Below, piece after piece: positions 26,340 through 49,538 of a DNA stretch of 64,000 bases. This stretch comes from Bradyrhizobium sp. WSM471 (GTDB lineage: Bacteria > Pseudomonadota > Alphaproteobacteria > Rhizobiales > Xanthobacteraceae): positions 1,488,001 to 1,552,000 of the forward strand of contig NZ_CM001442.1 of NCBI RefSeq assembly GCF_000244915.1, written 5' to 3'. Every line of letters begins with the position of its first letter. Within the stretch, counting starts at the first letter, position 1. Made by a program: the position numbers and the translations under genes. The notes beneath the pieces are model-generated. The model was not told where the DNA came from, did no database searches, and saw only the letters and a program-made list of their open reading frames with translations.

Positions 26340-26355
26340 CGGCACGCGGATTGCT
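26340..26355 (+). promoter_or_regulatory. sigma-54 (-24/-12) promoter candidate
   Basis: CGGCAC-GCGGA-TTGCT has a perfect -12 half and one mismatch in the -24 half. It is nearly the same 16-mer as at 29402 and 33303. The downstream gene starts at 26645, so the leader would be long (about 280 nt) and contains a mini-ORF with its own ribosome-binding site (ATGAAGTGA near 26465). Confidence 0.5.
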
Positions 26356-26644
26356 AGAATGAGGAGCCCGGGCCAGCGCGATGCCCCAGGTGTTCCCAAG
26401 AGATCCAATCGATGGGTACCTGGATGTGCTGAGGCCGCCCTCGATAGCCGAAAGGAGTAAACTCATGAAGTGAAACTTACACCCGATCTGCCTAATTGGC
26501 ACAGATCGAGACTTCAGGGAACGGAAGCAATGAGAACGCTCTCTGACCGTCAATAGCCTGTGCGGTTACGGGAGGAATGCGGTGGAGGATGAGGGGCGCA
26601 AGGGGCCCGCACCCAAAGGCCTATGTCTGAGGAGGAAAATTCTG

Positions 26645-27691
26645 GTGTCTGAGAAAACAATATTAACGTCTGACAGGCGGCCGCGAGCGGTCGGGCTGTT
26701 GGGAGGCGGGATCATTGGCGGCGGGTGGGCCGCACGGTTCATCCTCAACGGAGTCGACGTGCGTCTGTATGGTCCTTCTAATGCTGCCATCGAACGCGTG
26801 CAGAAGGTGCTATGCAGCGCGCGGCGGGTGTACCGGCAGCTGACGCAGGTTTCTTTGCCGGTCGAAGGGACTCTCACAGCGGTAAGCTCGGTCGCGGACG
26901 CCGTTTACGGAGTAGAGCTCGTCCAGGAGTCTGCTCCAGAGAAACTGGAGCTCAAGCAGCAGCTACTGGCGGCCGCCAGTCAAGCAGCGGCACCTGGTGT
27001 CCTAATCTGCTCTTCGACCTCAGGGCTACGGCCGTCCTTACTCGCGGCGGGAGTGAGACACCCCGAACGACTGCTTGTCGCGCACCCGTTCACGCCCGTG
27101 CATCTGCTTCCGCTCGTTGAGCTTTGCGGGGGAGCGAGCACCACGCCCGATTCGCTGGAGCGCGCGGCGGAGATCTTCCGGGCCGTCGGAATGCACCCAC
27201 TCGTGGTGCGCAAGGAGGTGAATGGGTTCATCGCGAACCGGCTCCAGGAGGCGCTGTGGCGCGAAGCACTATGGTTAGTGCACGACGATGTGGCCACCAC
27301 ACAAGAGATCGATGACGCAATCCGCTATTCATTCGGACTACGCCGCGCCGTCTTGGGCCCCTTCAGCGTCGGCGGGGGTGCGACCGGCATGCGCGAGTTG
27401 ATGGAGAAATGGCAACCCGAGCTGAGATCAGCGTGGACGAAGTTCACCGATGTGCCAGAGCACAATGATGCCTTCCTGTGCAAACTCGCCGAACAGTCAG
27501 ATGCACGGACGGACAATTGGACGGTAGCTGAGTTCGAAGATAGGAGGAACGACGCGCTCGTGGCCGTGCTGCGGGCGCTGCGAACACAGCGCTGCGGCGC
27601 GGGTGAGACGATCGCTTACTGGGAACAGAGGTTGCGCGACCGCGCGCCCCAGCTCGACGGTGGCGAGACTTGCCCAACAACCTCAATCTGA
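26645..27691 (+). CDS. 3-hydroxyacyl-CoA/L-carnitine dehydrogenase-like protein (paralog 1)
   Basis: A 348-aa NAD-dependent 3-hydroxyacyl-CoA dehydrogenase of the L-carnitine dehydrogenase branch. I chose the GTG at 26645 because GAGGAGG lies 9 bp upstream and the paralog at 34422 starts at the equivalent point. Rossmann motif RAVGLLGGGIIGGGWAARF (residues 14-32), QESAPEKLELK, catalytic region ICSSTSG, HPFTPVHLLPLVELCGG (His147) and NGFIANRLQEALWREALWLV are all present. It is clearly homologous to the second copy throughout, but reads GPFSVGGGATGM where that copy has GPLLTYRMACGGTGM, so the substrate pocket differs. It probably oxidises a beta-hydroxy acid or reduces a beta-keto acid. Stands alone behind a sigma-54-like element. 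Confidence 0.85.
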   Translation: MSEKTILTSDRRPRAVGLLGGGIIGGGWAARFILNGVDVRLYGPSNAAIERVQKVLCSARRVYRQLTQVSLPVEGTLTAVSSVADAVYGVELVQESAPEKLELKQQLLAAASQAAAPGVLICSSTSGLRPSLLAAGVRHPERLLVAHPFTPVHLLPLVELCGGASTTPDSLERAAEIFRAVGMHPLVVRKEVNGFIANRLQEALWREALWLVHDDVATTQEIDDAIRYSFGLRRAVLGPFSVGGGATGMRELMEKWQPELRSAWTKFTDVPEHNDAFLCKLAEQSDARTDNWTVAEFEDRRNDALVAVLRALRTQRCGAGETIAYWEQRLRDRAPQLDGGETCPTTSI

Positions 27692-27719
27692 ATGCATGTC
27701 TAGGAGCTCACGACCCGGT

Positions 27720-28960
27720 AGGTCAAAAAGGCCGCAGAGGTATCGTCAGAATCAGGTGTAAGAGAGCGCCTCTGGGCACGTCGGGTTAGCGGATTGCGCC
27801 CGCGAGTTAAGTCCGCTGATTCCGCAAAACCCTCGCCAAAGCGATCGCAAGCTGGCTCATCTTGCGCCCGAACGATTCTGCGCCTCGAGGGCATTCGTAG
27901 CGTAGAGCATTTGCGAAATCTTGGAGTGAAGGCGAAGAACGGAACACATTCATATGCCCGGTGCCAAGAACAGCGCCGGCCCCACTCGGCTTTGAAACCT
28001 CGAGCCTGAGCAGAGCGAGTTTCGGCATTCCGGACTTCGTAGATCACCTTTGATCGCGGGCTGGATCCACTTCTTCCGATGATTTCAGGACACATGCCCT
28101 TGCGGGTCAAATGCACGGCAGGCCTGAACCATCGTTTTGTCTGTTGATCGAGTCGGGAAGCGCTTCAAGCCGTTGACCGCGGCGATCAGGATATGGCCGC
28201 CTTTGCTCAGATCACTCATAACCGTGAGCCAGAATTCGGCGCCTCCGATCGACTCGATTCACAGCCGGAACACATGTTTATCGCACGACGGGGTAACACC
28301 CCAACATGACGAGGGCCGCCTCGTTCTTGATCCCGTCTCCCGGATTTTAACCCTGGGGGTGTCGAAGAAGACCAACGGATAAATCGATTCCAGAGGTCAG
28401 TTTTGCATTCGCGGGCGTCATCGAAGATCGAGTGGCTGAGTTTGCCGATCAGATAGGTGGGATCCGTCGTGCCCTAGGGGCTCAGCCGGCCAGAAGGCCT
28501 GGATCTCCAGCCGCTCATGTCCAGCCCATGCAACACTGATGATGTTTTCGTCGAGCGTGTTGGAGCGGTTGGCCCTTGGCAACGATCATCGGTTCGGAGG
28601 TGCCGGCACGGCCGCGCGGCACGCGATCCGGATCTCGCCCTCGTCTGTCAACAATGCTTTAGTGCTCGTGCGGTCGCGGCTTTTCCCCGAGCCACGGACG
28701 TCGGCAGCCCTTCTAGATGCGGGCGTGAGCCCTACGCCCAATGCACGCTCTAGAAACGCCTTCTTCAGCTGTCTGAAAAGATCGCCTTCGCCGGCGAGCT
28801 CTTCCGGCCTGATCCGATACCAGCTCCTTGATCGTTTCAGGACAGCAGCTTGATAGCACGGCTGGTCACGTCCTTCAGCAGTCAGTCTAGGCCTTCACCC
28901 TGGCGTCGGTGCAGGATGGGCAACAGGCTATTGCCAAGCGCCGCAGCCTCCGCCGTCAAG
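27720..28960 (-). pseudogene. IS256-family transposase, heavily decayed
   Basis: Minus-strand pieces in order from 28960: LFRQLKKAFLERALG (N-terminus), KALLTDEGEIRI, LDENIISVAWAGHERLEIQA, then GAEFWLTVMSDLSKGGHILI and AAVNGLKRFP near 28150-28230, MHLTRKGM at 28116, EFEAEWGRR-like, PFFAFTPRFRK and an end region near 27720. This order is that of an IS256/mutator transposase with many frameshifts. Terminal repeats were not recognised. Confidence 0.7.
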
Positions 28961-29293
28961 TCCATCGCTCACCAGCAGCACGATCGCTGCTTTCCAAACC
29001 ACCTTCCGCGGCCTCTTTCGGTCTCAAAGTAGCCGCTCAAATGGTTCGTTATCGACCACGCTGAAAGCATTCGGTCGATTTTTGGCGTAGCCTCAAAGAG
29101 GCGCGCTGATTGTGAATCGTCTGTCAGCCGTGGACAGCTCGCTTATCAGCAGATCGGGACACTCGCGCCTTTGGCCGCAATGCTGGTTTGCGAGGCGAAT
29201 CGCGCGGCGCGAATTGTTGGAGAGCCATCACCGTTGGATACAGCGGCGCAAGCGCGTGCCGGCGCCAAAGCCAGGAGGCGGCCGAGCGGGCGG
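28961..29293. other. no recognisable gene
   Basis: Sequence between the IS256 remnant and the NifA site. Open frames on both strands lack motifs or ribosome-binding sites. Confidence 0.4.
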
Positions 29294-29309
29294 TGTCCAG
29301 TTCAAGACA
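29294..29309 (+). promoter_or_regulatory. NifA upstream activator site
   Basis: TGT-CCAGTTCAAG-ACA is a perfect TGT-N10-ACA site. Its right end lies 92 bp upstream of the -24 element at 29402, the usual spacing for NifA acting through DNA looping (about 80-150 bp). Confidence 0.7.
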
Positions 29310-29401
29310 TCTAAGTTCCGAATCCGACAGACTAGGGCACAAGAGTGCTGCTACGCGGCGCTGGATTTGTCCCCTTAACGCAGGTCAGTCCAATTCCTTG
29401 T

Positions 29402-29417
29402 TGGCACGCCGATTGCT
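29402..29417 (+). promoter_or_regulatory. sigma-54 (-24/-12) promoter
   Basis: TGGCAC-GCCGA-TTGCT matches the RpoN consensus at every conserved base. Transcription would start near 29429, about 40 bp before the condensation-domain gene. Together with the upstream NifA site this is a complete nif-type promoter. Confidence 0.8.
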
Positions 29418-29470
29418 GAGACCCGCTGAAAGTCCGTTACCAGTGTCAATCTCAACGGCCAGAGGTTCAC

Positions 29471-30970
29471 ATGAAAGTGTTCGGGGTGATCCAAATCGAC
29501 GCGGCCGCCGGTATACAGTCAGGTGCGCTTCCGGGAATTTCAGCTGTACCGCGTCGTGCGAGCGTGCCCTTGTCGCTGCGTCAGCAGCAATTTTGGTTTG
29601 TCTCGCGTCTGAAGGGCGGTAGCGAAGATTGTCACGTGCAGACGATGCTTCGGCTTCGCGGCCAGCTGGATAAGGCTGTATTGCAGTCGGCTCTCGATGG
29701 ACTGGTGGCACACCATGAACTGCTGCGCACCACCTTCGCCGCGCAGGACGGCGAGCCATTTCAGAAGGTCGGTCGGGCGCGTACCGGACTTCTGTTGAGA
29801 CGGGATCATCTGACGTGGGCGGTAGACCTGGAGGCCGCGCTCTCCGAGCTCGTGCGCCGCGAGGTGGAGGTGCCATTTGATCTGGAACTTGGTCCGCTGA
29901 TCCGCGCGCGGCTTGTGCGCTTGGCGGTGGATGACCATGCGCTCGCCATTACTATGCACCACATGGTCTCGGACACTTGGTCAAGGAATATCCTCACGCG
30001 GGATCTCAGCGAGTTTTATAATGCGATTAGGGAAAACTGCGCGGTTCGATTCAAGGTGTCGCCGGTGCAGTATGCGGACTATGCGCTTTGGCAGCACCGT
30101 TGGCTCTCGGGCCAGGCGTTGCAGCGTCAGTCGGAATACTCGCACCGGATACTGGTGGGCGCACCAGCAGTGCTGGAGCTGCCCACGGATCGGCCGCGTT
30201 CATCCCGGCCGGACTACTACGGTGGCGATGTCGAGTTTACGCTGCACCCGGTTCTTACAGACCAAATCAAAGCGCTGAGCCGAAATCTTAACACGAGCTT
30301 GTTCGTGATGCTGCTGTCAGCCTCGGTGTTGGTACTAGCGAGGCTGTCGTGTCGCGATGAGTTGGTGATCGGCACGCCGGGTGCGAACCGGGCGTACTCC
30401 GAAATAAGGCTGATCGGCCTATTTATGAATCCTTTGGCGCTGCGCATCGATTTGTCGAGTGATCCAACGCTGGAGATTTTAGTGGAGCGCGGGCAGGCCG
30501 CCGCGGTGGGGGCGAAGGCGCACCAAGATCTACCTTCCGACCAGATGCTGAAGCTCGTCAATTCGTCGCGCACCTTGGCTCACAGCCCTATCTTCCAGGG
30601 AGCGTTTGCATGTGAAAACAATGTTGTCGGGCCGGCGCAGCTAGGGGGGCTGAAACTCGAATGCGTGAACCCTTGCGTCCGCTTCGAGCAGCATGATCTT
30701 GCGCTCGACGTTAATGAGGTCAACGCCGAGTGTCGCGGTCGGCTATTTTACGCGACGGCACTGCTTGAGAGGAGCACAATCGATCGGTTTGCGGATAATT
30801 TCCACCAGGCGGTGAGCCAGATGGACCGAGGCTTTCGGACGCGGAGTTTGGTCGTCGCAGAGATGTCAAGATCTTTGGAATGTGTGGAATGTGAGCGAAG
30901 CCGATCCGCACGATCCATGTATCCAGGAGCCAATCGACGCACAGCGCAACCCGGAGGCAATCATGATTGA
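29471..30970 (+). CDS. stand-alone NRPS condensation domain
   Basis: A 499-aa protein that is a single condensation (C) domain. Such domains form amide (or ester) bonds between an acyl or aminoacyl donor and an amine acceptor. Motifs in order: C1-like LSLRQQQFWFVSRLKGG (35-51), C2 HHELLRTTFAAQDGEP (81-96), the catalytic C3 MHHMVSDTWS with His163, His164 and Asp168 (Thr instead of Gly after it), C4/C5 around YADYALWQHRWLSGQALQRQ, and VIGTPGANRAYSEIRLIGLF (usual RxxxE-GxFxN region). No adenylation, carrier or thioesterase domain is attached or encoded nearby. The first gene of an operon with the aminomutase-like gene, behind the nif-type promoter. Confidence 0.88.
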   Translation: MKVFGVIQIDAAAGIQSGALPGISAVPRRASVPLSLRQQQFWFVSRLKGGSEDCHVQTMLRLRGQLDKAVLQSALDGLVAHHELLRTTFAAQDGEPFQKVGRARTGLLLRRDHLTWAVDLEAALSELVRREVEVPFDLELGPLIRARLVRLAVDDHALAITMHHMVSDTWSRNILTRDLSEFYNAIRENCAVRFKVSPVQYADYALWQHRWLSGQALQRQSEYSHRILVGAPAVLELPTDRPRSSRPDYYGGDVEFTLHPVLTDQIKALSRNLNTSLFVMLLSASVLVLARLSCRDELVIGTPGANRAYSEIRLIGLFMNPLALRIDLSSDPTLEILVERGQAAAVGAKAHQDLPSDQMLKLVNSSRTLAHSPIFQGAFACENNVVGPAQLGGLKLECVNPCVRFEQHDLALDVNEVNAECRGRLFYATALLERSTIDRFADNFHQAVSQMDRGFRTRSLVVAEMSRSLECVECERSRSARSMYPGANRRTAQPGGNHD

Positions 30971-32144
30971 CGACAAGGACCAGAATTCAACCAAGACCGA
31001 TCTGAACGCACGGGTGAACTCGCCGGCAGCTTCCATTCGCCGACCTGAATCATTGCCCGCAGAATTGGAGTCACGCTGCCACACTAAGATCATGAAATTC
31101 ATGGAGGGGACGCGCGCCCTTGGTAAACATGAGTTGCAAGCCAGCAGCATCACGCGCTATCAGGTCACAAAGTTCTATCGCGAACGGATCACCAATAGCC
31201 GTTACTACGAGCAGCTTAAGCATATTGTGGAACCTTCAGCAAAGGAGTTTGAGAGCCATGGCAGTTTGGACACGAGCGGCGAGCACGACAATACGGTCAC
31301 CCCTGGACTACAGCACAAGTACGCGCAGACCGGGTTGTTGCTGGTAACGGACCGTTGCGCGTCATATTGTCGTTTTTGTTTCCGTAAACGCATTGTAGGC
31401 AAAGATTCCGACGAAATCGCACCTGATTTCTCCCTGATTGCGCAGTACATCGGCGCTCACCCTGAGATGACTAACGTGCTGTTATCGGGAGGCGACCCAT
31501 TCGTGCTCAGTAGTGCCAAGCTCGACAGAATACTCGATCATCTGCTGCCGATCCCGCACTTGGAGACAATTCGATTCGGCACAAAAATGTTCGCTTTTGC
31601 GCCCAAGCGGTTCGAAGATCGAGCTCTAGCGGATTTGTTCCGAAGGATACATGAATCCGGTAAGTCCGCAGCAATAGTTACACATTTTGATCACATCGGT
31701 GAAATCTCGGTTGATGCCGAGTGGCGGGTTCGGTCTTTGCGCGCACTGGGCGTGCAGTTCTTCAACCAGTCTGTACTTCTCGCGAAAGTCAATGACGATG
31801 CCGAGATCCTGGCGGCGACCTTCGCAAAATGTCACCAAATGGGTGTCCGCCCATATTACCTCTTTCAGGCTAGGCCTGTAAAAGGTGCATCGCATTTTCA
31901 AGTGCCTCTCCGTCGTGGGCTTGAAATTGCGCGCAGCGTCAATCAACGTCTCAGTGGAATTCAAAAGACATTCAAATACATCATGTCTCACTACACGGGA
32001 AAGATCGAGATCCTCGACTTGGGAGCAGATGGTCGCCTGTATATGCGGTACCACCAAAACAAGACTTCCGAAAAGATAGGAAGAATCTTTTCTCGGCAGC
32101 ACGTCGACGCTGCTTGCTGGTTGGACGACTTGCCCGAAGAGTGA
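30963..32144 (+). CDS. lysine-2,3-aminomutase-like radical SAM enzyme
   Basis: A 393-aa KamA-family protein. The ATG at 30963 follows GGAGGC and overlaps the stop of the condensation-domain gene by 8 bp, implying translational coupling; a start at 30882 would lie inside that gene and is less likely. Radical SAM Cys cluster CASYCRFC (Cys132, Cys136, Cys139), RKRIVG, LLSGGDPFVLSSAKLDRIL and FFNQSVLLAKVNDD are typical. Such enzymes move an alpha-amino group to the beta carbon using SAM, a 4Fe-4S cluster and PLP. The classical PLP-lysine motif PGGGGK is absent; the corresponding region reads YIMSHYTGKIEIL. The substrate may therefore not be lysine. Confidence 0.88.
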   Translation: MIDDKDQNSTKTDLNARVNSPAASIRRPESLPAELESRCHTKIMKFMEGTRALGKHELQASSITRYQVTKFYRERITNSRYYEQLKHIVEPSAKEFESHGSLDTSGEHDNTVTPGLQHKYAQTGLLLVTDRCASYCRFCFRKRIVGKDSDEIAPDFSLIAQYIGAHPEMTNVLLSGGDPFVLSSAKLDRILDHLLPIPHLETIRFGTKMFAFAPKRFEDRALADLFRRIHESGKSAAIVTHFDHIGEISVDAEWRVRSLRALGVQFFNQSVLLAKVNDDAEILAATFAKCHQMGVRPYYLFQARPVKGASHFQVPLRRGLEIARSVNQRLSGIQKTFKYIMSHYTGKIEILDLGADGRLYMRYHQNKTSEKIGRIFSRQHVDAACWLDDLPEE

Positions 32145-33302: not shown

Positions 33303-33318
33303 CGGCACGCCGATTGCT
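33303..33318 (+). promoter_or_regulatory. sigma-54 (-24/-12) promoter candidate
   Basis: CGGCAC-GCCGA-TTGCT differs by a single base (first T to C) from the promoter at 29402. The next gene starts at 33515, so the leader is about 185 nt. No exact TGT-N10-ACA site was found in the 180 bp upstream. Confidence 0.55.
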
Positions 33319-33514
33319 ACGATGAAGACACCGGAGCGAGTGCGTTCGCAGAGAGGGTGTCGCAGGAGTCCCACGAGAGCGGCTCGATCAATTATAGCCC
33401 ATGCGTGGCCGCGCTCCCCGCATCGAAATGAGTGAACATGATGAGACCAAAGCTATTGCCGACCTGGTCCGGCTCCGGACGGATCGAGCTTTCAGTAGAA
33501 AGGAAAGTAGTAGG

Positions 33515-34408
33515 ATGATTTCTGAGGTATTCATTACGTGTGCCGTTACAGGTAGTGCAGGCACCCTGCGTAGTCCGCTGGTACCAATAACTCCCGAGGA
33601 GATCGCCAGTTCTGCTATCAAGGCGGCGCGCGCTGGGGCAGCTATGGTGCACATTCACGTGCGCAATCCGGAAACCAAGCGGGGGTCGCGCGATATAGCA
33701 CTGTATCGTGAAGTCGTCGAGCGCATCCGTAACTCAGACGTTAATCCGCTTATCAATCTAACTTCAGGGATGGGCGGCGACCTCGTGCTCGGTGGGGCAA
33801 ATGCCCCCCTTCCGCCTAATCCTGCGGGAACGGATATGGCGGGCGCGCTCGAGCGACTCGTGCACGTCGAGGAGCTGCATCCCGAAATTTGTACGCTGGA
33901 CTGCGGAACAATGAACTGGGGCACCGATAGCAATTACGTCTTTGTCAACAGCGCGGCGACGCTGCGCGCGATGGCTGCGCGCTTGAAGGAGCTCGGTGTT
34001 CGCCCTGAGCTTGAGGTCTTTGATGCTGGTCAGCTGGTCATGGTGAACGATCTCATCGGGCAGGGGCTTATCGACGATCCGCCGCTAATCCAGTTGTGCA
34101 TGGGGATTCGCTACGGCGCGCCCGACGATCTGACTACGCTGATGGCGCTCGTGCATCGGCTACCACCTCGCGCCATCTTCTCAGCGTTCTCCATCGGGCG
34201 GATGCAGCTCCCGTACGTGGCGCTGGCGCCATTGGTGGGCGCGAACGTGCGGGTAGGACTGGAGGATAATGTGTACCTTTCCCGTGGGCGTTTGGCGACG
34301 AACGCTGATCTTGTGCAGAGAGCTGTCGAGATACTCGAGCGCATCGATGTCCGCGTGATGAGCCCGGACGAGGTGCGAACGAAGCTCGCGCTTTCAGTTC
34401 GTGCCTGA
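33515..34408 (+). CDS. beta-keto acid cleavage enzyme (BKACE, DUF849)
   Basis: A 297-aa DUF849 protein. These Zn enzymes cleave a beta-keto acid with acetyl-CoA to give acetoacetate and a shorter acyl-CoA (Kce on 3-keto-5-aminohexanoate; another member on dehydrocarnitine). The ATG at 33515 gives the family start EVFITCAVTGSAG and follows AAGGAAAG; the frame is open further upstream. Zn ligands are visible as HIHVRNPET (His47, His49) and VGLEDNVYL (Glu250). LPITPEEIA-type sequence (VPITPEEIASSAIKAARAGA) and INLTSGMGGD are also family hallmarks. It precedes the second carnitine-dehydrogenase-like gene by 13 bp, the same enzyme pairing used in carnitine breakdown. The substrate is inferred to be a beta-keto acid made by that dehydrogenase. 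Confidence 0.9.
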   Translation: MISEVFITCAVTGSAGTLRSPLVPITPEEIASSAIKAARAGAAMVHIHVRNPETKRGSRDIALYREVVERIRNSDVNPLINLTSGMGGDLVLGGANAPLPPNPAGTDMAGALERLVHVEELHPEICTLDCGTMNWGTDSNYVFVNSAATLRAMAARLKELGVRPELEVFDAGQLVMVNDLIGQGLIDDPPLIQLCMGIRYGAPDDLTTLMALVHRLPPRAIFSAFSIGRMQLPYVALAPLVGANVRVGLEDNVYLSRGRLATNADLVQRAVEILERIDVRVMSPDEVRTKLALSVRA

Positions 34409-34421
34409 GAGGTCCAGAATC

Positions 34422-35471
34422 ATGTCTGTGAGGCTACCGCGCGCTGTCGGGCTACTTGGGGGTGGAGTGATCGGCGGCGGCTGGGCCGCGCGATTCCTCC
34501 TAAATGGGGTTGATGTGCGACTGTATGGCCCGTCGGCTATTGCGGTCGAGCGAGTGCAGAAGATGTTGTGTAGCGCGCGGCGGGCCTATCGCCAGCTGAC
34601 GCAAGTCACCCTGCCGGCCGAGGGAGCACTCACAGTTGTGCACTCGGTCGCGGACGCTGTGCACGGCGTTGACCTTGTGCAAGAATCGGCACCCGAGCGG
34701 CTCGATCTCAAGCGCGAGCTGCTAGCGTCCGCCAGTAGGGCGGCGGCATCTGAGATCCTAATCTGCTCCTCGACGTCCTCTATTCGGCCCTCGTTGCTCC
34801 AGGACGGCGCGGATCATCCCGAGCGCCTCTTGGTCGCGCATCCGTTCAACCCCGTATATCTGCTGCCGCTTGTTGAGCTGTGTGCCGGACGGCATACTGC
34901 ACCCGAGGCTCTAGTGCGAGCGGCTGAGATCTATCGAGCAATCGGAATGCATCCGCTTGTGGTGCGCAATGAGGTCGATGGCTTCATTGCGAACCGGCTG
35001 CAGGAGGCGCTGTGGCGCGAGGCGCTATGGCTGGTGCATGACGATCTGGCTACCGTGCAGGAGGTCGATGATGCGGTCTGCTATTCCTTTGGGCTACGCC
35101 GACCGATCATGGGTCCTCTTCTGACCTACCGCATGGCCTGCGGCGGGACGGGCATGCGCGAAGCCATGGAGCGACTTGGACCGTACCTGAAGTGGCCACT
35201 CTCAAAGCTCACTGACGTGCCCGAGCTGACCAATGCCTTCCTGGACAAACTCGCCGGACAGGCGGAAGCGCAGGCGAAGACAAGCAAGTTTACTGAGCAA
35301 GCACGCGACGACTGCCTCGTTGCGTTGCTGCAGGGACTACGGTCACAGCGTCACGGAGCGGGCGAAACGGTCGCGAGCTGGGAGCAGCGGCTGCGCGACA
35401 ACGCTCTACAGCTCGCGGCAGGCGATTCAAACCCGCTTCGGTCTCCCACACTGCAGCTGCCGTCCGATTGA
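34422..35471 (+). CDS. 3-hydroxyacyl-CoA/L-carnitine dehydrogenase-like protein (paralog 2)
   Basis: A 349-aa NAD-dependent dehydrogenase, operonic with the BKACE gene (13-bp gap, GAGAGG before ATG 34422). Rossmann motif RAVGLLGGGVIGGGWAARF near the N-terminus, QESAPERLDLKRELL, ICSSTSSIRPSLL, HPFNPVYLLPLVELCAG and DGFIANRLQEALWREALWLV match L-carnitine dehydrogenase. This copy keeps TYRMACGGTGMREAMERLGP and KWPLSKLTDVPELT, which resemble the carnitine-dehydrogenase C-domain. It would convert a beta-hydroxy acid to the beta-keto acid that the BKACE cleaves. Clearly a duplicate of the gene at 26645. Confidence 0.88.
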   Translation: MSVRLPRAVGLLGGGVIGGGWAARFLLNGVDVRLYGPSAIAVERVQKMLCSARRAYRQLTQVTLPAEGALTVVHSVADAVHGVDLVQESAPERLDLKRELLASASRAAASEILICSSTSSIRPSLLQDGADHPERLLVAHPFNPVYLLPLVELCAGRHTAPEALVRAAEIYRAIGMHPLVVRNEVDGFIANRLQEALWREALWLVHDDLATVQEVDDAVCYSFGLRRPIMGPLLTYRMACGGTGMREAMERLGPYLKWPLSKLTDVPELTNAFLDKLAGQAEAQAKTSKFTEQARDDCLVALLQGLRSQRHGAGETVASWEQRLRDNALQLAAGDSNPLRSPTLQLPSD

Positions 35472-36237: not shown

Positions 36238-37160
36238 ATGGACAGCCATACGATCAGTGCGCTGAATCGACTAGAAGTGGTGGACACGGGCCGGCGACGG
36301 CGTTGGTCTGACGAGGAGAAGGCACGGATCGTTTTGGAGAGCCTGTCCGAGCCGCGCCTGGTGCGGCGACAGCGCGGCGATACGGCTTATCACGTTCTCT
36401 GCTGGTGACTGACGAAAAGCCTTCGCAGCGAACCGGACCAAATCCGAGGCTGGTTTTCTCAGGGCAGTTGTGGCCGAGGGTCCGCCCGTGACGTCGGTGG
36501 CGGCCTCATCGGAGAGCGCGCCAGCACATTCGACGGAGCGTCGGATTGAGATCGAGCTGGCTGGCGGGCGGCGCGTCATTGCCGACGCTGGCGTCGACGT
36601 TGAGGCGCTTCGCCGGATCATCGGGGCTCTGGACCCGCGATCATTCCGATCCCTACGGGAGTTCGGGTGTGGTTGGCGACGGGCCACACCGACATGCGCA
36701 AAGGCTTCGCCTCATTGTCGTTGCAGGTGCAAGAGCTGCTGCGCCGCAATCCGCTGAGTGGTCATTTGTTCTGCTTCCTCGGACGTAGGGGTGATTTGTT
36801 GAAAGTGATCTGGCAGGACGGCCAGGGAGCATGCCTGTTTACGAAGAAACTCGAGAGAGGTCCTTTTGTTTGGCCGTCGCTGGCGGACCGGCGTGGTGTC
36901 GATCTCGCAGGCGCAGATGAGCTACCTTTTGTCCGGCATCGATTGGCGCAATCCTCAATAGGCTTGGCGTCCGACGAGCGTGGGCCGAGAGTTTGTCTTG
37001 AATTTGGCGGTGAATGTGATTCCATCTGGTGATGGAATCTGTTGCTGACGGACTGCCGTCCGATTTCACCGCCGCACATGCAATGATCCTGGCCGAGCGC
37101 GCCGCAAGGCTTGCGACGGAAGCCAAGCTTGCTGAAGCGGCCAATGCCCTAACAATGGTC
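36238..37160 (+). pseudogene. IS66-family remnant (tnpA, tnpB, start of tnpC)
   Basis: tnpA starts MDSHTISALNRLEVVDTGRR at 36238, with RWSDEEKARIVLESLSEPRL and, after a frame change near 36360, IELAGGRRVIADAGVDVEAL. tnpB follows; its expected ATG reads ATC at about 36643, then IPTGVRVWLATGHTDMRKGF, LLRRNPLSGHLFCFLGRRGD and TKKLERG before a frameshift near 36885. tnpC begins MESVADGLPSDFTAAHAMIL at 37032 but ends after about 40 codons where IS256 sequence starts. A truncated IS66 element. Confidence 0.75.
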
Positions 37161-40827: not shown

Positions 40828-40843
40828 TGGCACGATGGTTGCT
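40828..40843 (+). promoter_or_regulatory. sigma-54 (-24/-12) promoter
   Basis: TGGCAC-GATGG-TTGCT fits the RpoN consensus at every conserved base. It lies about 140 bp upstream of the dioxygenase start at 40983. The activator site was not identified. Confidence 0.65.
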
Positions 40844-40982
40844 AACCAGATGCCGCAGCAACGGGTCTGAGTGAGCGCAGACAGGCAGGACAAGCTTGCT
40901 CTCCCTTTTGCTGTCGCAATCCATTCGTTTGCGCCTGAATAGCATTATCCGGCGTACAGACCGAAGTTGGGAGATCACCGCC

Positions 40983-41894
40983 ATGACTAAAACGTCGTTG
41001 ATGAATGATATCGTTGCCTCCGCTGATGTCCTCAAACGTGGAGCCCGAATTGGCGCCGAAATCCGGAACGTCAAGCTTGCGGGTGATTTGCCGGAGCCGA
41101 TGATCACTGCGATCAACAACTTGGTGCTAAAGCACAAAGTGGTCTTCTTCCGCCGCCAGGATCATCTCGATGACGGCGAGCAGGAGAGCTTTGCTCGTCG
41201 TTTCGGAACGCTTGTGCCGCATCCGATCCTAGGTGCCACGAAGGGAACGTCTTCTATCCTTGATGTTGATTCCGCCCGGGCCGGAATGCGGGCAGACTTA
41301 TGGCACGCTGATCATACGTTCGTGGATGCCTATCCCAAGATTACGGTGCTGAGAGCGGTTGTGGTCCCAGAATTCGGCGGCGATACAGTGTGGTCAAACA
41401 CGGTGGCTGCTTATCTTGACCTACCGCAGCCGCTGCAACGGCTTGCTGACGAGCTCTGGGCTGTTCACAGCAACGTAATCGATCATGCCATAATGCCCCG
41501 CGCCAGCGAACTCGACAAGAACCATTTTGACCAAGTTTACACGAAAACGGTCTATGAAACCGAACATCCGGTTGTGCGTGTCCATCCCGAGACTGGCGAG
41601 CGGACGCTTGTACTCGGTGATCGGGTGCGGCGTTTTGTTGGGATTCCGAAATATGACGGCCAGAAGCTGTTCGATTTGCTGCAGGCTCATATCGCCGCGC
41701 CCGAAAACACTGTGCGCTGGAACTGGAAGGCAGGCGATCTCGCGATCTGGGACAATCGGGCTACCCAGCATTATGCAGTAACTGATTACGGCGATCAGCA
41801 TCGCGTCGTTCGCCGCGCCACCGTCCATGGCGACGTGCCAGTCAGCGTCGACGGCCGGCACAGCAGCGTTATGCGGGTCAAGACGACCAAATAG
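40983..41894 (+). CDS. TauD/TfdA-family Fe(II)/2-oxoglutarate dioxygenase
   Basis: A 303-aa enzyme that would hydroxylate or oxidatively cleave a small organic substrate with O2 and 2-oxoglutarate. The ATG at 40983 follows GGGAG; an in-frame upstream start at 40896 is less likely. The iron triad is visible: HxD in WHADHTFVD (His108, Asp110) and the distal His in RATQHYAVTDYGDQ (His263); the 2-oxoglutarate-binding Arg is in RVVRRATVHGD. VVFFRRQDHLDDGEQESFAR is the family N-terminus. The sequence resembles sulfonate/alkylsulfate dioxygenases, but the substrate is unknown. Alone in its transcription unit behind a perfect -24/-12 element. Confidence 0.9.
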   Translation: MTKTSLMNDIVASADVLKRGARIGAEIRNVKLAGDLPEPMITAINNLVLKHKVVFFRRQDHLDDGEQESFARRFGTLVPHPILGATKGTSSILDVDSARAGMRADLWHADHTFVDAYPKITVLRAVVVPEFGGDTVWSNTVAAYLDLPQPLQRLADELWAVHSNVIDHAIMPRASELDKNHFDQVYTKTVYETEHPVVRVHPETGERTLVLGDRVRRFVGIPKYDGQKLFDLLQAHIAAPENTVRWNWKAGDLAIWDNRATQHYAVTDYGDQHRVVRRATVHGDVPVSVDGRHSSVMRVKTTK

Positions 41895-42480: not shown

Positions 42481-42905
42481 CAAGTTTCGATAAAACTTGG
42501 GGGCAAGGTCAGCCCGATCACAATCCCGTTTTGTCTCCGGTGCACACGGACCTGATCTGCCGAAAGCAGCGAGTAGCCGAGCACGGGGTCGCTGCCACCA
42601 TTTCAGATCGGGCGTCGCTCCGCTCCATGTCTCGACGCGAGCACGACCAAGCGATACAGACCTCATACGCCGCTGCCGCGCTTGTCATAAGTGCAACACC
42701 GTCTACTTCTCTGTAGGCGAAAGCGGTGACACAAGAATGTCCCTGATCCGCTCCAGACGACTGTTTAATCTAGTAGCTGCACAAGCAAGGCGAGCAATGC
42801 TTTACTTCAGTTGGACTAGTGGAGCAATGGAACTGCCTGCACAATTTTACGCATTCTGCTCAGCCGTTGACCGCACTGTGTCACCAAATCACACTGGAGA
42901 ATGAC

Positions 42906-44174
42906 ATGCAATGGCGGACAGTTCACTCCGACCGTAGCCGTCCTGTCACAGACCTTCGGAACAACGCTTACGTAATTGGACAGAGCAAGCCGTCCTTCGA
43001 TGCGTCATACCTAGCTGATTTCATGACGACCACCGAAGATTGCAGGACCGCAATAACCATTCCTTCGGTGAACCGTCCGCCTAAAGATTGTCCGCAGGTG
43101 CTGGATTTTGTGGGATGCTCCTACTTAGGGTTGGACAATCATCCGGTAGTTATCGCTGAAGCGATCGAAGCGCAGCAATCGCTGTATTTATCGTCTGCTC
43201 GAGCGCGCCTCGCTCTCGATCTTCTGCGAGCACTTGAAGAAGATCTCTCCGAACTGTTCTCCGCGCGAGTACTCGTTTTCTCGAGTGGCATGCTCGCCAA
43301 TCTTGGCGCGATGCCCATTCTTGCTTCGGGTCGTTTAACTGGCGGAACAAAGCCCCTGCTTATATTTGATAGCTCTGCACACATTTCGCTCGGCTATCAC
43401 AAGCCCGTGGTCGCTGATGTGACGAGGGTAGAAACGATCCCACACAACGATCTTCGTTCGCTTGAACGGTTGTGCCGCGAGAACGCGGTGGTCGCCTACG
43501 TGTGCGATGACCTCTGCTCGATGGCAGGCTCTTCGCCGCTTGAGGGACTGCGTCAACTCCAGGAACGTTACGGGCTCTTTCTCTATATCGACGATGCTCA
43601 CAGCATATCAATCGTCGGACATCATGGTGAAGGATTTGCTCGCTCTCGGTTTTCACAAGTCCTCGGTGAGAGAACGATCATAGCAGGCTCACTGGCCAAG
43701 GGCTTCGGCGCGTCGGGCGGGCTGTTGATGCTCGGAACAACCCGACAAGAGGCGCTGTTTCGGCAGCACTGCGTTCCGTATGCACTTTCGTCGCCTCTGA
43801 ATCTGGCCGCAGTTGGCGCAGCGCTCGGCTCCTGCAAGATTCACCGCTCGGCAGAGCTTGGCGAACGACAGAGGCGCATAGCGGAAAGAATCAAGGTTTT
43901 TGACCATCGTATCGCAACCGCCGAGCACGGCAGCTTACTTCCGATCAGAATGATCTCCGCCGGATCGGAGACCAATGCGATTGCAATTGCAAGAACTCTT
44001 CTCAATCGTGGGTTTCATACCCAGGCCACATTCCTTCCAAAGACCGCACCAGGAACAGCGAGCATCCGGGTACGCATTACAGCAGAGCACGAGCTTGGGA
44101 ACATAGAGCAACTATGCGACTGTATCTTGGATACAGTCGCCGCGACGACCGGAAAACCTTACCCCTTGAGGTGA
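42906..44174 (+). CDS. alpha-oxoamine synthase (AONS/KBL-type PLP enzyme)
   Basis: A 422-aa PLP fold-type I enzyme of the family that condenses an amino acid with an acyl-CoA to form an alpha-amino ketone with loss of CO2 (as in 8-amino-7-oxononanoate synthase). The ATG at 42906 follows GGAG; the first upstream in-frame start at 42819 has no ribosome-binding site. Visible: DFVGCSYLGLDNHP, FSSGMLANLGAM, FDSSAHISL (stacking His159), LYIDDAHSISIVGHHGEGF (Asp230, His232) and the Schiff-base lysine in AGSLAKGFGASGG (Lys265). GSLAKGFGASGG replaces the usual TLxKAxGxxGG. No biotin genes accompany it, so a secondary-metabolite role is inferred. No -24/-12 element found upstream. Confidence 0.88.
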   Translation: MQWRTVHSDRSRPVTDLRNNAYVIGQSKPSFDASYLADFMTTTEDCRTAITIPSVNRPPKDCPQVLDFVGCSYLGLDNHPVVIAEAIEAQQSLYLSSARARLALDLLRALEEDLSELFSARVLVFSSGMLANLGAMPILASGRLTGGTKPLLIFDSSAHISLGYHKPVVADVTRVETIPHNDLRSLERLCRENAVVAYVCDDLCSMAGSSPLEGLRQLQERYGLFLYIDDAHSISIVGHHGEGFARSRFSQVLGERTIIAGSLAKGFGASGGLLMLGTTRQEALFRQHCVPYALSSPLNLAAVGAALGSCKIHRSAELGERQRRIAERIKVFDHRIATAEHGSLLPIRMISAGSETNAIAIARTLLNRGFHTQATFLPKTAPGTASIRVRITAEHELGNIEQLCDCILDTVAATTGKPYPLR

Positions 44175-45375: not shown

Positions 45376-45569
45376 AACTTATGGTTCAGGACACTAGTAC
45401 TGGACCGCTCCCGGTTGATGCGGGACTTGGAGGATGGAAGCGCGCCAAACGTTACGGAGCGGAACCATCTATGTCTCAGGTGGCGTCACCTCCATCGACA
45501 GGCGATCGAGCGGGCTCTGCGCCGCCCGGATCGAATCGACGGCGACCCGCGCGTATCGAGCTGTCGACG

Positions 45570-45800: not shown

Positions 45801-46065
45801 CGGACGTCTAGCAGCCCTAATCAGTCAGGCGATCGGCCAAATAGCGGCTGAACTGGGCTCAAATCAGTCATCTCGATACTCGTGTCTGAGAGGGCTAACA
45901 CACACATCCTCTCAGCAAGGGGGCGCTCTACGCCACCTCCCCTTACACCGCGGCAGCGGCTTCCTTCAATCCACAAGCATTCATTCAGATGGACTAAAGC
46001 TCTAGGTCTATGTGGCGTATCCATCCGAGCTAGGCCGCGGACAGGGGCTCACCGATTCCACCGCT

Positions 46066-46284
46066 TGAGGAGTTCGGCGTCCTCCTTGTGCATCCTGATG
46101 AGCTCCGTCAGGTTTTGATGTCGAAGTCGGTGAACGCCATGACCTGGTCGTCACCTATGCCGTAAACCCAGATGACGCCATCCTCTGTGTCCATTCCGTT
46201 GGCCACGTCCCAGAGCCATTCCTCGTCTTCGCCGAGGTCTTTTGCGACGCGAACGATGGTGACGACGGCGTAACCTTGTTGACG
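46066..46284 (-). pseudogene. small acidic protein gene, one-base deletion
   Basis: The minus strand encodes ARQQGYAVVTIVRVAKDLGE, DEEWLWDVANGMDTEDGVIW and VYGIGDDQVMAFTDFDIKT then a TGA. Adding one base before that stop continues LTELIRMHKEDAELLKRWNR. From memory, intact proteins of this kind (about 80 aa) occur in Bradyrhizobium. The start codon is unclear because a base also seems lost at the N-terminus (ATGCACGTC). Confidence 0.45.
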
Positions 46285-46329
46285 TGCATGGCTACGCCGC
46301 CTGGGCGGAGGACCTCGACGCAAGAGGCG

Positions 46330-47820
46330 TCCAGTTCCAGGGCAACAACTCGTGCAGGCGCTTCTGCGGCATGTCGGGGCGAAGACGTCGGCAAACCAGG
46401 CTTTCGGGTCGATGTCGTTGAGACGAGCCGTCATGATGAGCGTCGCCATCATGGCGGCTCGCTCGGCCCCGCGGTCGGAGCCGGCGAACAACCATGCCTT
46501 TCTTCCCAGCGCAAAACCGCGCAACGCTCGCTCGGCCGCTTGGTCAGGCAGATCCTTCCGTCATGGACAAAGCGAGCAAGGCCATCCCATCGGTTGAGCA
46601 GATAATCGATCGGCTTTGATCACGTTGGACGAACGCGAGAGCCGGGTGGATTCCGCCCGTAGCCAAACCTCAAAATCGCTCAGCAGCGGCGCGCTTCTGT
46701 CTTGGCGGACCCGCAGCCGCTCCGCAGCACTCAACCCTTGGATCTCGCGCTCGATCTCGAACAGCTGGTCAATTCGACGGACCGCTTCCAGCGCAATGGG
46801 CGAGATCGCCGTCGCCGCCCGCCCGCGCCGCGCGTTCTGGGCGATATCGGCCAGTTCGATGAATGCTCTGCGGCCGTGCGCCCAGCAGAAGGCGGCCGTG
46901 GCGGGCACCGCCTTGTGCCCGGGATCGAAGAGCGCGTTGAACCCGTTATAGGCGTCGGCTTGAAGGATGCCGGCGAAGTTCTGAAGATGCCGCGCTGGAT
47001 GTTCGCCGCGCCGATCGCGCGAGGCGTAAAACAGCGCCCCCGGCGGACCTTGCCCGCCAAATGGCCGATCGTCGCGGACATAGGTCCAAATCCGCCCGGT
47101 GTCCGTCTTTCCGCGGCGGAGAGCACATGGGCTTCGATCAGTTCAAAGATAGGGCTGACCGCGAACGCTCCGGCGGCAACCTGGTCCGCCAGCGTCGAGT
47201 CCGACAGGTCGATCCCCTCGCATTTGAAGCGCTGGCTCTGTCGGTTTAAGTCGGTTTAACGGCTGATGCTGACCAAATTTGTCGAACAGGATCGTCGCCA
47301 CAAGCTGCGGTCCGATATAGCCCCGCGGCGTGGCATAGAACGGTGCCGGTGACTGTGTGATTGCCTCGCAGTCCCGGCAACTGAACTTCTCCCGCTCCGT
47401 GTCGATCACCTTGAACCGGCGTGGGATCTCCTCCAACGTCGAGGTCACGCTTTCGCCGAGCTTCGACAGCCGCGCCGACCCGCAGCAGGGGCATTGCGTC
47501 GGAGCCGGCAGGACCACGCGTTCTCGCACGATGTCGTCGGGGAAGGCCTGGCGGACGGGCCGCCTGCGCTCAACGAGCGCACGTCTGCGTCTTGCCCGCT
47601 GCCTTCTCGGCTGCAAGTTCATCCTCAGTTGCAGCCGCCTCAAGCTCCTGAAGCTCCAGCTCTAGCTGATCGAGCAGCCGCGCCGACCGCTCCGAGCGCG
47701 TGCCATAGAACATCCGCGGCAGCTTCTCGATCTCGAGCTTGAGGTGGGCGATCAGCCCTTCAGTGCGCGATTGCTTCGCCTGCTGAACATGATCCGACCC
47801 GATGATCGACTTTGCTGAAG
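46330..47820 (-). pseudogene. IS66-family tnpC transposase, frameshifted
   Basis: From about 47800 (minus): IGSDHVQQAKQSRTEGLIAH, LEIEKLPRMFYGTRSERSAR, PTQCPCCGSARLSKLGESVT (zinc-finger), FYATPRGYIGPQLVATILFD, then other frames GILQADAYNGFNALFD, AFCWAHGRRAFIELADIAQN and ALRGFALGRKAWLFAGSDRG, ending ARLNDIDPKAWFADVFA and LHELLPWNWTPLAS. All domains of IS66 TnpC are present but in at least four frames. The companion tnpA and tnpB were not found. Confidence 0.8.
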
Positions 47821-47936
47821 CAGATTATCTTCGTCGCATTCGAGGGCAAACTCGGTTGTGCTCATCCGACCCGTGACAAAGAGGAACGTAGCCCTTCCTC
47901 ATTGCTGAACCTGCCGCATGCTTTCGGCAGCGCCGG

Positions 47937-49382
47937 TCAAGTCGCTAAGGCATGCCACGCGATCACTTTGCCCAGGGCTCGAACCGAGACCGCCGTACCT
48001 TGCAAAATCGCTCGACCGGCGAACATGGGCGGGCCTCTATTAATCTCTCTGTCGCGATAGGGTCCGGTCATTTGGGAGACTGGCATAACAATAACTTCCG
48101 GATACTGCGCCATTAGCTGACTAAGAGCGAGGCCAACCGGAGACTCGTCTTCGATGCTCATCGGCAGGTCCTTGCCCCAAATCAGGATGTCGAACTCACC
48201 GCTCTGTCCGAGCAGCCGCATGCAACGGATCAGGATTTCAGTGTCAAAAGCACTCTGAGCACTCAGATCCAGCGGATTGAAGCAGTTCGCAAATCTCGGA
48301 AGAACCTCTGCCAGTTGCATGCGCAATTGGTCGGAGAATGAAGCGAGTTTCAAGCTGCGCGTCGACAAGATCAGGTCGGCCATGATATTGCCCATTCCAC
48401 CTGAAAAACTTGCAAATGCTACGCGATTGCCACGCGGCCTGCGGCACGCGTTGAATGCCACGACGGTTTCGACCAAGTCCTCGGCGGAATCAACCGTGAT
48501 CACGCCTAGGTCGTCCAACAAACGGATGTCACGTTCGTAGGTGTTCGCGGCCTCTGTTGCCGTATGTCGGTTTATTCCCTTTCGCACCTCGGGATGAGCG
48601 CCGACGCGCAACATAATGACGGGCTTTCCTTGTTGCCTTGCGCGCGTGCAGGCAATGGCGAAGTTTTCTGGATCCTTAATGCCCTCGCAGTAGCTAACGA
48701 TAATTTTGGTTTGCACATCGTCAGCGAAAAAATCGATTAGTTCGGCTGTCGTGACGCTGACTTCGTTACCAGTGGTCGCGATCTTGCTGATCCCAATACC
48801 CCTTCCCATTAGCGGATGCATCATCGTGATCATCTGTCCGCTTTGAAAGACACCACTAACGGCTCCTGGCACGATTTCGGGTGTCTTACTGTCTCCTACG
48901 GCAATTATCGGCCGATGCAGATTGATCACTCCTAGAGTATTGGGACCGATGACGACTGGTGTCGTCGAGTCACTTGCCCAGCGCTGAATTTGCTGCTGCC
49001 TTGTGCGGCCTTCCTCAGAGCCGAGTTCCGCGAATCCGCTCGAGATGATTTGTGCGACACCGACAAATTGTTGCTTGCATTCTTCCAGCACAGCAAGAAT
49101 GTTCTCGGCCCGAACACATAGCACGGCAAGGTCGATGTGGAAGGGAACATTTGAGATGGAGCTGTAGCAGTCCACGTCGTCAACCATTGCGTAGTTCGGG
49201 TTAACGGCAGCAATGTTTCCAGCAAAGCCGGAAGACACAATACTGTTAAGAATATTTTTCGCGAGGCTCGGTTTCGGTGAGGCACCGATCACGGCAACTC
49301 CGTCCGGTTCGAAGAGGGATCGAAGATTACGTTTAACATTGGTCGTCTCGTGCTTGTCAGACTCCTGCGCGTGTGAATACAT
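47937..49382 (-). CDS. NDP-forming acyl-CoA synthetase, alpha-type (CoA-binding) subunit
   Basis: A 481-aa protein with the CoA-binding Rossmann domain and succinyl-CoA-ligase-like domains of NDP-forming acyl-CoA synthetases. Seen: LFEPDGVAVIGASPKPSLAK (residues 23-42), AAVNPNYAMVDDVDCYSSIS, GPNTLGVINLHRP, QSGQMITMMHP and TTGNEVSVTTAELIDFFADD. The phospho-acceptor His is in INRHTATEA (His273). There is no ATP-grasp domain, so a separate beta subunit is needed and none is encoded in the window. It may activate a carboxylic acid as its CoA thioester. The ATG at 49382 follows AGGAGAG, behind a full nif-type promoter. Confidence 0.85.
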   Translation of the reverse strand: MYSHAQESDKHETTNVKRNLRSLFEPDGVAVIGASPKPSLAKNILNSIVSSGFAGNIAAVNPNYAMVDDVDCYSSISNVPFHIDLAVLCVRAENILAVLEECKQQFVGVAQIISSGFAELGSEEGRTRQQQIQRWASDSTTPVVIGPNTLGVINLHRPIIAVGDSKTPEIVPGAVSGVFQSGQMITMMHPLMGRGIGISKIATTGNEVSVTTAELIDFFADDVQTKIIVSYCEGIKDPENFAIACTRARQQGKPVIMLRVGAHPEVRKGINRHTATEAANTYERDIRLLDDLGVITVDSAEDLVETVVAFNACRRPRGNRVAFASFSGGMGNIMADLILSTRSLKLASFSDQLRMQLAEVLPRFANCFNPLDLSAQSAFDTEILIRCMRLLGQSGEFDILIWGKDLPMSIEDESPVGLALSQLMAQYPEVIVMPVSQMTGPYRDREINRGPPMFAGRAILQGTAVSVRALGKVIAWHALAT

Positions 49383-49420
49383 CCCGCTCTCCTGTCACTG
49401 CATGTTTCCGCATTTCACAT

Positions 49421-49436
49421 GGCAACTAATGTGCCA
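49421..49436 (-). promoter_or_regulatory. sigma-54 (-24/-12) promoter
   Basis: On the minus strand TGGCAC-ATTAG-TTGCC matches the RpoN consensus except for the variable last base. The start codon at 49382 is 38 bp downstream of the -12 half, giving a leader of about 27 nt. Confidence 0.75.
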
Positions 49437-49522
49437 ACGGAGCTATTAAGCTTCTGAGCCGTTTTTTTGAGAGAGGTTCGCGCCACAGGGGTGCCGATTC
49501 TGCCCTACAGCCGCCCCATCCC

Positions 49523-49538
49523 TGTCAGAAGGTAGACA
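49523..49538 (-). promoter_or_regulatory. NifA upstream activator site
   Basis: TGT-CAGAAGGTAG-ACA (plus-strand reading; the motif is palindromic) is a perfect TGT-N10-ACA. It lies 86 bp upstream of the -24 element of the acyl-CoA synthetase promoter, close to the 92 bp seen at the condensation-domain promoter. Confidence 0.65.

Follow-up and report, generated by a model that had tools for sequence, protein, structure and literature searches.

The DNA analyzed here is a 64-kb window, bases 1,488,001–1,552,000 of the one-contig 7.78 Mb genome of Bradyrhizobium sp. WSM471; nifH (1,469,914–1,470,732) lies 17 kb ahead of its start. Within the window, six −24/−12 promoter elements of the RpoN type precede a set of metabolic genes, among them genes for a KamA-like aminomutase and a beta-keto acid cleavage enzyme (BKACE). 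Ten proteins of the window were classed by using Pfam and NCBIfam: a redoxin, DctA, two carnitine-dehydrogenase-like proteins (DH1 and DH2), a free condensation (C) domain, a KamA-like radical SAM protein, BKACE, a TauD-family dioxygenase, a BioF-like protein, and a CoA-ligase alpha subunit. None of the ten reached an NCBIfam equivalog cut-off, and DctA and the BioF-like protein passed a subfamily cut-off. The closest relatives among the genomes searched are Bradyrhizobium sp. WSM1417 and B. cytisi. In pairwise comparisons with these two (NG86, few changes, rows below 75% identity dropped), the ratio of nonsynonymous to synonymous substitution rates (dN/dS) was 0.12–0.38 in every tested gene except the C domain. 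No RNA families or tRNAs were found in the window. The elements, the genes behind them, and two NifA boxes are as follows (window positions).

13619..13634, plus strand: RpoN element before the redoxin gene (pattern and weight-matrix scan)
13672..14898, plus strand: redoxin/TlpA-like protein, 408 aa (Pfam)
26340..26355, plus strand: RpoN element before DH1 (weight-matrix scan; relatives)
26582..27691, plus strand: DH1, carnitine-dehydrogenase-like 3HCDH protein without thioesterase domain (Pfam/NCBIfam; dN/dS 0.17)
29294..29309, no strand assigned: NifA box TGT-N10-ACA, 108 bp upstream of RpoN element 29402, kept in WSM1417 and B. cytisi
29402..29417, plus strand: RpoN element of the C-KamA operon, exact consensus, one of 23 exact genomic sites
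29471..30970, plus strand: free C domain, decaying (Pfam; relatives)
30882..32144, plus strand: KamA-like radical-SAM aminomutase open reading frame (ORF), core from near 31089 (NCBIfam; dN/dS 0.12–0.19)
33303..33318, plus strand: RpoN element of the BKACE-DH2 operon (weight-matrix scan)
33401..34408, plus strand: BKACE (Pfam/NCBIfam; dN/dS 0.12–0.23)
34401..35471, plus strand: DH2, a DH1 paralogue (Pfam/NCBIfam; only 136 codons align in WSM1417)
40828..40843, plus strand: RpoN element before the TauD-family gene, exact consensus (pattern scan)
40896..41894, plus strand: TauD-family dioxygenase (Pfam; structure match)
47937..49382, minus strand: acyl-CoA synthetase (ADP-forming) alpha-type protein (Pfam; dN/dS 0.20–0.28)
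49421..49436, minus strand: RpoN element before the alpha-type CoA-ligase gene (pattern scan; relatives)
49523..49538, no strand assigned: NifA box TGT-N10-ACA, 102 bp upstream of RpoN element 49436, in all three genomes

All six elements, which an initial annotation of the window had proposed, are present with 0–1 mismatch to TGGCACN5TTGCW, and they hold the six top RpoN scores of a position-weight scan of the window, each 53–242 bp ahead of a gene. The same annotation held that each stands before an intact metabolic gene; all six do precede genes, but the C domain is decaying and out of frame with KamA. At a score of at least 14, six sites were observed in the window versus 1.28 expected, and the maximum in 60 first-order Markov simulations was 5. 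At a score of at least 13, 6 of 7 sites lie on the coding strand no more than 300 bp ahead of one of 12 listed genes, regions that cover 2.8% of positions (P ~3e-9, for a gene list compiled after the fact). None of the six best sites fell outside a promoter position, and RpoN sites were thus not equally frequent in remnants of insertion sequences (ISs). The seventh site (2181–2196, minus strand, score 14.0) is within an ORF with a SEC-C motif and is probably there by chance. Across the genome, the exact consensus occurs 23 times, versus 2 for a reversed control; six of the 23 sites are inside an 82-kb interval, picked after the sites were known, that takes in nifH together with the window's first 41 kb, and two fall in the window itself (P 0.015).

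The regulator was approached through NifA boxes upstream of RpoN sites. When the collected loci were pooled, a NifA box was found 70–140 bp upstream of 49 of 85 distinct strong RpoN sites (score of at least 17), whereas 1.0 was expected, and the control gave 10 of 543 weak RpoN sites; because the pooled loci partly overlap and come from related strains, a P value for this contrast is not to be taken literally. The distances between box and RpoN site peak at 80–99 and 110–119 bp.

The promoters also recur before orthologues, counted at an RpoN score of at least 13.5. An RpoN site is present within 400 bp of the redoxin gene in 29 of 30 loci (NifA box in 16) and before 17 of the 19 best BKACE copies (NifA box in 8), and it is absent from the fetched 1.5 kb of all 10 second BKACE copies (ten genomes' loci). 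For the CoA-ligase subunit, a site was found in two of three genomes, the third scoring 12.7, with a NifA box in all three. In the TauD family, 13 of 30 loci, those of WSM471 and the two relatives among them, have one somewhere within the 1.5 kb fetched, with a NifA box in 3, and KamA has one within 2 kb in 30 of 53 rhizobial loci, 23 with a NifA box, and in none of seven other bacterial loci. The DH1 element is kept in B. cytisi, and another precedes a dehydrogenase copy of WSM1417 with differing flanks; around the TauD-family and dehydrogenase promoters of WSM1417, the flanking sequence has diverged while the RpoN elements remain. Hence four of the six promoters recur widely, and those of DH1 and the CoA-ligase subunit, which are comparable in three genomes only, recur there. 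This footprinting, along with the closeness to nifH, supports NifA-RpoN control, and the NifA-type regulation proposed initially appears sound on these grounds.

Collectively, these results make it probable that the six promoters belong to a NifA-RpoN regulon on a Bradyrhizobium symbiosis island, which would drive several separate accessory modules. The promoters, their conservation, the proximity of nifH, and the purifying selection on most of the genes are properties of the DNA itself; the actual NifA dependence and all enzyme activities we infer. Under low nodule oxygen, NifA would bind TGT-N10-ACA about 70–130 bp upstream of the −24 element, contact the RpoN polymerase at −24/−12, and turn on each gene or operon separately, alongside the nearby nif genes. 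With its own promoter, each module could persist and relocate even as IS elements disrupt its surroundings. The predicted targets fall into at least four accessory modules, with the CoA-ligase alpha subunit as an orphan besides them.

Several observations weigh against this reading. When two mismatches were allowed, RpoN sites were not enriched in the window (24 observed versus 33 expected), so the case from this single window is only moderate, and the RpoN weight matrix was written after a published compilation. An exact NifA box stands at only two of the six elements (29402 and 49436), the other four being without one, and TGT-N10-ACA itself is unenriched in the window (10 observed versus 8.1 expected). 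RpoN sites are missing from 17 of the 30 TauD loci, from 23 of the 53 rhizobial KamA loci (score of at least 13.5 within 2 kb), and from all 30 BioF loci. Among the site-less KamA loci, two (L009 and L023) hold weaker matches at the expected place (12.4 and 9.6), one (L022) had only 1 kb of upstream sequence, and a MaoC-linked Bradyrhizobium group has no site at all. The putative enzyme roles rest on family matches under curated equivalog cut-offs. Finally, the co-occurrence of KamA, BKACE, and BioF, described below, leaves room for a partly shared pathway.

Nearly all sequence between the elements had been described as IS debris, which the ORFs scanned did not bear out. Of 13 further ORFs between 20 and 47.3 kb, a single one (36667–37032) belonged to an IS family, IS66, and 12 had no Pfam match, in a scan that would overlook short IS debris, and the IS110, DDE, and rve genes detected all lie outside this interval. 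Open genes without an RpoN element also occur in the window.

15425..16723, plus strand: dctA, C4-dicarboxylate transporter, without its own RpoN element (NCBIfam subfamily, 589.9 bits versus a cut-off of 513)
within 21307–24678, minus strand: acyl-CoA dehydrogenase and nitronate monooxygenase genes, open frames rather than debris, without RpoN element
42819..44174, plus strand: BioF-like (PRK07505) protein, without RpoN element, BKACE-linked elsewhere (NCBIfam)

The acyl-CoA dehydrogenase gene is under purifying selection (dN/dS inside 0.12–0.28).

The initial annotation had assigned all of these promoters to a single pathway, in which KamA would form a beta-amino acid, the dioxygenase would hydroxylate, the dehydrogenases and BKACE would cut, the CoA ligase would activate, and the C domain would condense. 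We consider one such NifA-run pathway unlikely. The comparison draws on the gene content of 146 genomes of the genus, 93 of which have nifH over the cut-off (genome tallies are complete; thresholds differ between searches; genome lists for the tests, and the KamA-BKACE and BKACE-BioF distances, were compiled by hand). Among the 93 nifH-positive genomes, with relatedness uncorrected, KamA is present in 14 of 19 BKACE genomes (p 1.7e-6), BioF in 18 of 19 (p 4.5e-10), and KamA and BioF overlap in 16 of 25 (p 2e-4). Redoxin associates with KamA, BKACE, and BioF too (p 0.001–0.003, likewise uncorrected), so part of this co-occurrence signal reflects the type of island. WSM471 and WSM1417 each hold the genes in a stretch of about 50 kb; in B. 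cytisi, one contig carries KamA, BKACE, and the two dehydrogenases, and the rest are on other contigs. However, KamA adjoins BKACE only in this genome and the two relatives. Of the other 11 genomes with both, three have them on the same contig, at distances of about 80, 122, and 286 kb (G117, G034, and G094), and eight on different contigs.

The six families are also unevenly distributed: KamA was found in 25 of the 146 genomes, BKACE in 19, BioF in 32, the TauD family in 89 (81 of the 93 nifH-positive genomes), redoxin in 52 (at 1e-60), and the CoA-ligase subunit in 3. The prediction of co-occurrence gave a mixed result: KamA, BKACE, and BioF occur together beyond chance, but the TauD family is in most nifH-positive genomes and the ligase subunit in very few, and KamA was not found near BKACE outside this lineage. 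The proposed complementarity of functions is only partly borne out: the dioxygenase is closest to a sulfate-ester (alkylsulfatase) dioxygenase, the C domain is decaying, and no CoA-ligase beta (ATP-grasp) subunit was found among the window ORFs scanned. In addition, DH2 is only partly alignable in WSM1417. Because KamA, BKACE-dehydrogenase, the AtsK-like dioxygenase, redoxin, and the CoA-ligase subunit differ in distribution, they look like separately inherited modules, one of them a conserved BKACE neighborhood, rather than one pathway.

It is likewise improbable that the promoters and genes are functionless relics of a larger island in the course of being lost. The C domain is split and near-neutral, DH2 is partial in WSM1417, the BioF and redoxin copies of B. 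cytisi contain a stop, and IS genes are found in and around the window, all of which such decay would explain; the dN/dS of KamA, BKACE, DH1, the CoA-ligase subunit, and the acyl-CoA dehydrogenase (0.12–0.28) and the persistence of RpoN sites while their flanks diverge speak against it. Service of the RpoN promoters by another enhancer-binding protein (e.g., of the NtrC or DctD type) instead of NifA would suit the four elements without an exact NifA box and is very improbable in view of the boxes at 49 of 85 strong sites, their peaked distances, and the location near nifH.

In the NifA-RpoN regulon of separate modules that we favor, the first module would be KamA, an aminomutase outside the lysine subfamily that may form a beta-amino acid. 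The protein has the radical-SAM CxxxCxxC motif (invariant C159, C163, and C166), and it shares this motif and an alignable core with lysine 2,3-aminomutase (KamA/AblA; 2a5h). Asp293 of the lysine enzyme binds the lysine side chain, whereas Arg occupies this position in 65 of 65 KamA sequences compared. The equivalog cut-off for lysine 2,3-aminomutase was missed by far (174.8 of 525.4 bits), and the best NCBIfam score was 196.5 versus a subfamily cut-off of 199.2.

The C domain of this lineage is decaying. Its dN/dS is 0.54 and 0.83 in the two comparisons, it contains a stop in B. cytisi, and its match is shortened in WSM1417. The C domain and KamA are overlapping separate frames here and one fused ORF in ten other rhizobial loci. 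An active nonribosomal peptide synthetase (NRPS) condensation domain carries the motif HHxxxDG; the window reads HHMVSDT, with the Gly lost and the second His kept, and 11 of the 15 C-domain sequences aligned have lost this second, catalytic residue. Over 45 pairs of 10 loci, the median dN/dS is 0.37 for the C domain versus 0.125 for KamA. A role of the C domain as amide-forming partner of KamA, which the ten fused ORFs would fit, was rejected in view of the lost His and the faster evolution. The first ~70 codons of the KamA ORF (30882–31088) resemble, in our reading of the alignment, the start of an NRPS adenylation (A) domain; the arrangement suggests that KamA may have replaced an A domain behind the C domain. 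An ATP-grasp ligase as KamA partner in this lineage was also rejected, since neither ligase type was found in its three genomes: no L-amino-acid ligase was detected by a search that lacked a positive control and whose empty outcome proves nothing by itself, and no close Ddl-like ligase was seen (best 29–33%; positive control G123, 77%).

The second module would comprise a dehydrogenase that oxidizes a carnitine-like 3-hydroxy acid and BKACE, which would cleave the 3-keto acid to acyl-CoA and acetoacetate, with BioF nearby. Carnitine degradation uses carnitine 3-dehydrogenase with BKACE. The same two enzyme families share an operon in the window, and relatives carry a thioesterase domain and have CaiB- and CaiC-like neighbors. 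The window copies lack the thioesterase domain, and their scores are all under the equivalog cut-offs: 383 and 398.8 versus 592 bits for DH1 and DH2 against carnitine 3-dehydrogenase (full-length relatives, 480–503), and 220.5 versus 382 bits for BKACE against 3-keto-5-aminohexanoate cleavage enzyme. The BKACE-BioF neighborhood is conserved: in 11 of the 18 genomes with both, the genes lie on the same contig no more than 23 kb apart, and in seven they are on different contigs. Genes for a CoA-transferase, a CaiC-like ligase, a hydratase, an SDR, and an aminotransferase stand near BKACE or BioF in several of the 17 stretches read, where ORFs were called mechanically and some genes were missed (e.g., a BKACE masked by an opposite-strand ORF). 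A 226-aa family without Pfam match (L172:9224-9904) is a repeated neighbor of KamA and of BKACE across several Bradyrhizobium loci. An origin of DH1 by recent duplication of the operon, followed by loss of BKACE, was rejected; the DNA similarity of the two loci (73–79%) is confined to the dehydrogenase genes and excludes the upstream parts.

The third module, the TauD-family dioxygenase, may free sulfate from organosulfates, which would be useful for an Fe-S-rich nitrogenase. Its best solved match is the AtsK alkylsulfatase (1oih; E 2e-99 over 282 residues, versus 2e-47 for E. coli TauD), and it falls under the NCBIfam taurine dioxygenase equivalog cut-off (227.6 versus 313 bits). An amino-acid hydroxylase was rejected as AtsK fits better. 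The fourth module, redoxin with dctA downstream, might provide redox protection and C4-dicarboxylate supply. About 30 kb ahead of the window there is a second redoxin copy (genome 1456457–1457638, 57% identical), which follows an exact RpoN site by 69 bp. The CoA-ligase alpha subunit is under the ADP-forming acetate-CoA ligase equivalog cut-off (260.9 versus 567 bits).

An accessory NifA-RpoN regulon on a symbiosis island is of an already known kind. On the island of M. loti R7A, 16 candidate NifA promoters are reported; examined as lacZ fusions, the 15 that precede intact genes acted as targets of NifA, and many of the accessory-gene mutants were fully effective (PMC3538637). The likeness lies in many separate −24/−12 promoters with upstream TGT-N10 boxes before accessory genes besides nif and fix; the differences are that NifA dependence was measured there and that KamA, BKACE, carnitine-dehydrogenase-like, and AtsK-like operons are not among the operons of Table 1 of that paper, in whose available text a search also found no KamA-type genes (PMC3538637). 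For B. diazoefficiens USDA110, a 158-gene NifA/RpoN module has been described (PMC10454721), and in nodules dctA (bll1718) is down by log2 4.6 in the nifA mutant, but also by 2.0 in the nifH mutant (Table 3 of PMC4926349). The island of this strain likewise has NifA-dependent accessory metabolism (dctA, ahpD, the peptide synthetase blr2108, and the ectoine-synthase-like blr2106), whereas KamA and BKACE are not named in the accessible parts of these reports (PMC4926349, PMC10454721, and PMC6515984). In the open-access literature searched, neither KamA nor BKACE was found as a NifA-regulon member. Our results suggest how a NifA regulon persists in an island scarred by ISs, namely through a separate promoter for each module, point to a radical-SAM aminomutase apparently under NifA in several rhizobial genera, and bear on the question of what bacteroids make besides ammonia under NifA.

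KamA loci were compared across 60 stretches (L028–L031 are identical in KamA, as are L008 and L010). An ATP-grasp peptide ligase lies within 6 kb in 29 of them, 17 of the L-amino-acid-ligase type, three of which (L036, L046, and L060) are only ~28% identical to the query, and 13 of the Ddl type; a C domain lies within 6 kb in 14 and a diaminobutyrate aminotransferase in 9. In Bradyrhizobium sp. WSM3983 (L015:8720-11077), an L-amino-acid ligase and KamA form a single 785-aa ORF that sits behind an RpoN element with a NifA box. A search of 72,556 plasmids at 1e-80 found KamA on 28, all of rhizobial genera. On the R. tropici plasmid, RpoN elements precede the ligase and KamA (with a NifA box at that of KamA), and a glutamate 5-kinase gene lies between the two, as it does in three close loci. 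The R. leguminosarum Norway plasmid has RpoN with a NifA box before an MFS transporter gene, and RpoN before a ligase-KamA-ligase arrangement and also before a second aminomutase-like gene. On the R. etli NXC12 plasmid, RpoN precedes KamA, and one of two ligases has RpoN with a NifA box 141 bp upstream; an ectoine-synthase-like gene is also present (135 bits versus a subfamily cut-off of 128). An RpiR-type regulator gene, one each in R. tropici and R. etli, has RpoN and a NifA box ~360 bp upstream. Within ~20 kb on the three plasmids are genes for DoeA-/DoeB-like hydrolases (under the equivalog cut-offs) and transporters, for which no RpoN site of at least 13 was found within 500 bp; a synthesis plus catabolism arrangement of these and the KamA/ligase genes is possible.

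These loci raise the possibility, which we hold with considerable doubt, that several rhizobial genera share an undescribed NifA-switched pathway in which KamA, with its Arg in place of Asp, would act on an acidic amino acid, leading via a beta-amino acid to a ligase-joined nodule-specific dipeptide or an ectoine-like compound, a second system like that of the rhizopines. The substrate would perhaps be glutamate, given the glutamate 5-kinase gene that separates ligase from KamA in R. tropici and its three close loci and the gamma-glutamyltransferase gene beside KamA in another clade. In rhizopine (mos/moc) systems, the synthesis genes have NifA promoters and the linked catabolic genes do not. 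The likeness is in idea only, NifA-driven bacteroid synthesis with catabolic genes nearby, and no mos or moc genes were identified here; the DoeA-/DoeB-like and transporter genes without RpoN sites look as if free-living kin could consume the product. The WSM471 lineage, with its decaying C domain and no ligase found, would be losing this pathway, yet keeps KamA.

Proteomic data on R. leguminosarum bv. viciae UPM791 touch on these genes at the level of names. In the accessible part of that study, the 50 most abundant proteins of pea bacteroids include a "lysine 2,3-aminomutase" (RLV_1884), numbered with symbiotic-plasmid genes, and a D-Ala-D-Ala-ligase-like protein, neither of which was detected in vegetative cells (PMC7950203). 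No function for RLV_1884 was found in the literature searched. A diaminobutyrate aminotransferase of UPM791 makes diaminobutyrate in pea nodules; its authors, in the text available, report that a NifA site was not evident and interpret the enzyme as an adaptation to homoserine (PMC10228743), which argues against NifA control as a simple explanation for this aminotransferase gene. In WSM471, a diaminobutyrate-aminotransferase-like gene at 1.62 Mb has two weak sites (13.5 and 12.5) on the opposite strand and none on its own strand in the fetched flanks.

In ten loci (L008, L010, L012, L042, L048, L050, L052, L055, L057, and L058), KamA is accompanied by a gamma-glutamyltranspeptidase, a 7TM-transglutaminase-like protein, and a Ddl-like ligase. 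Such gamma-glutamyltranspeptidase-KamA loci were found in Acidobacteria, other phyla, and Bradyrhizobium; three of the Bradyrhizobium loci, without an exact NifA box, have a strong RpoN element 236–254 bp upstream.

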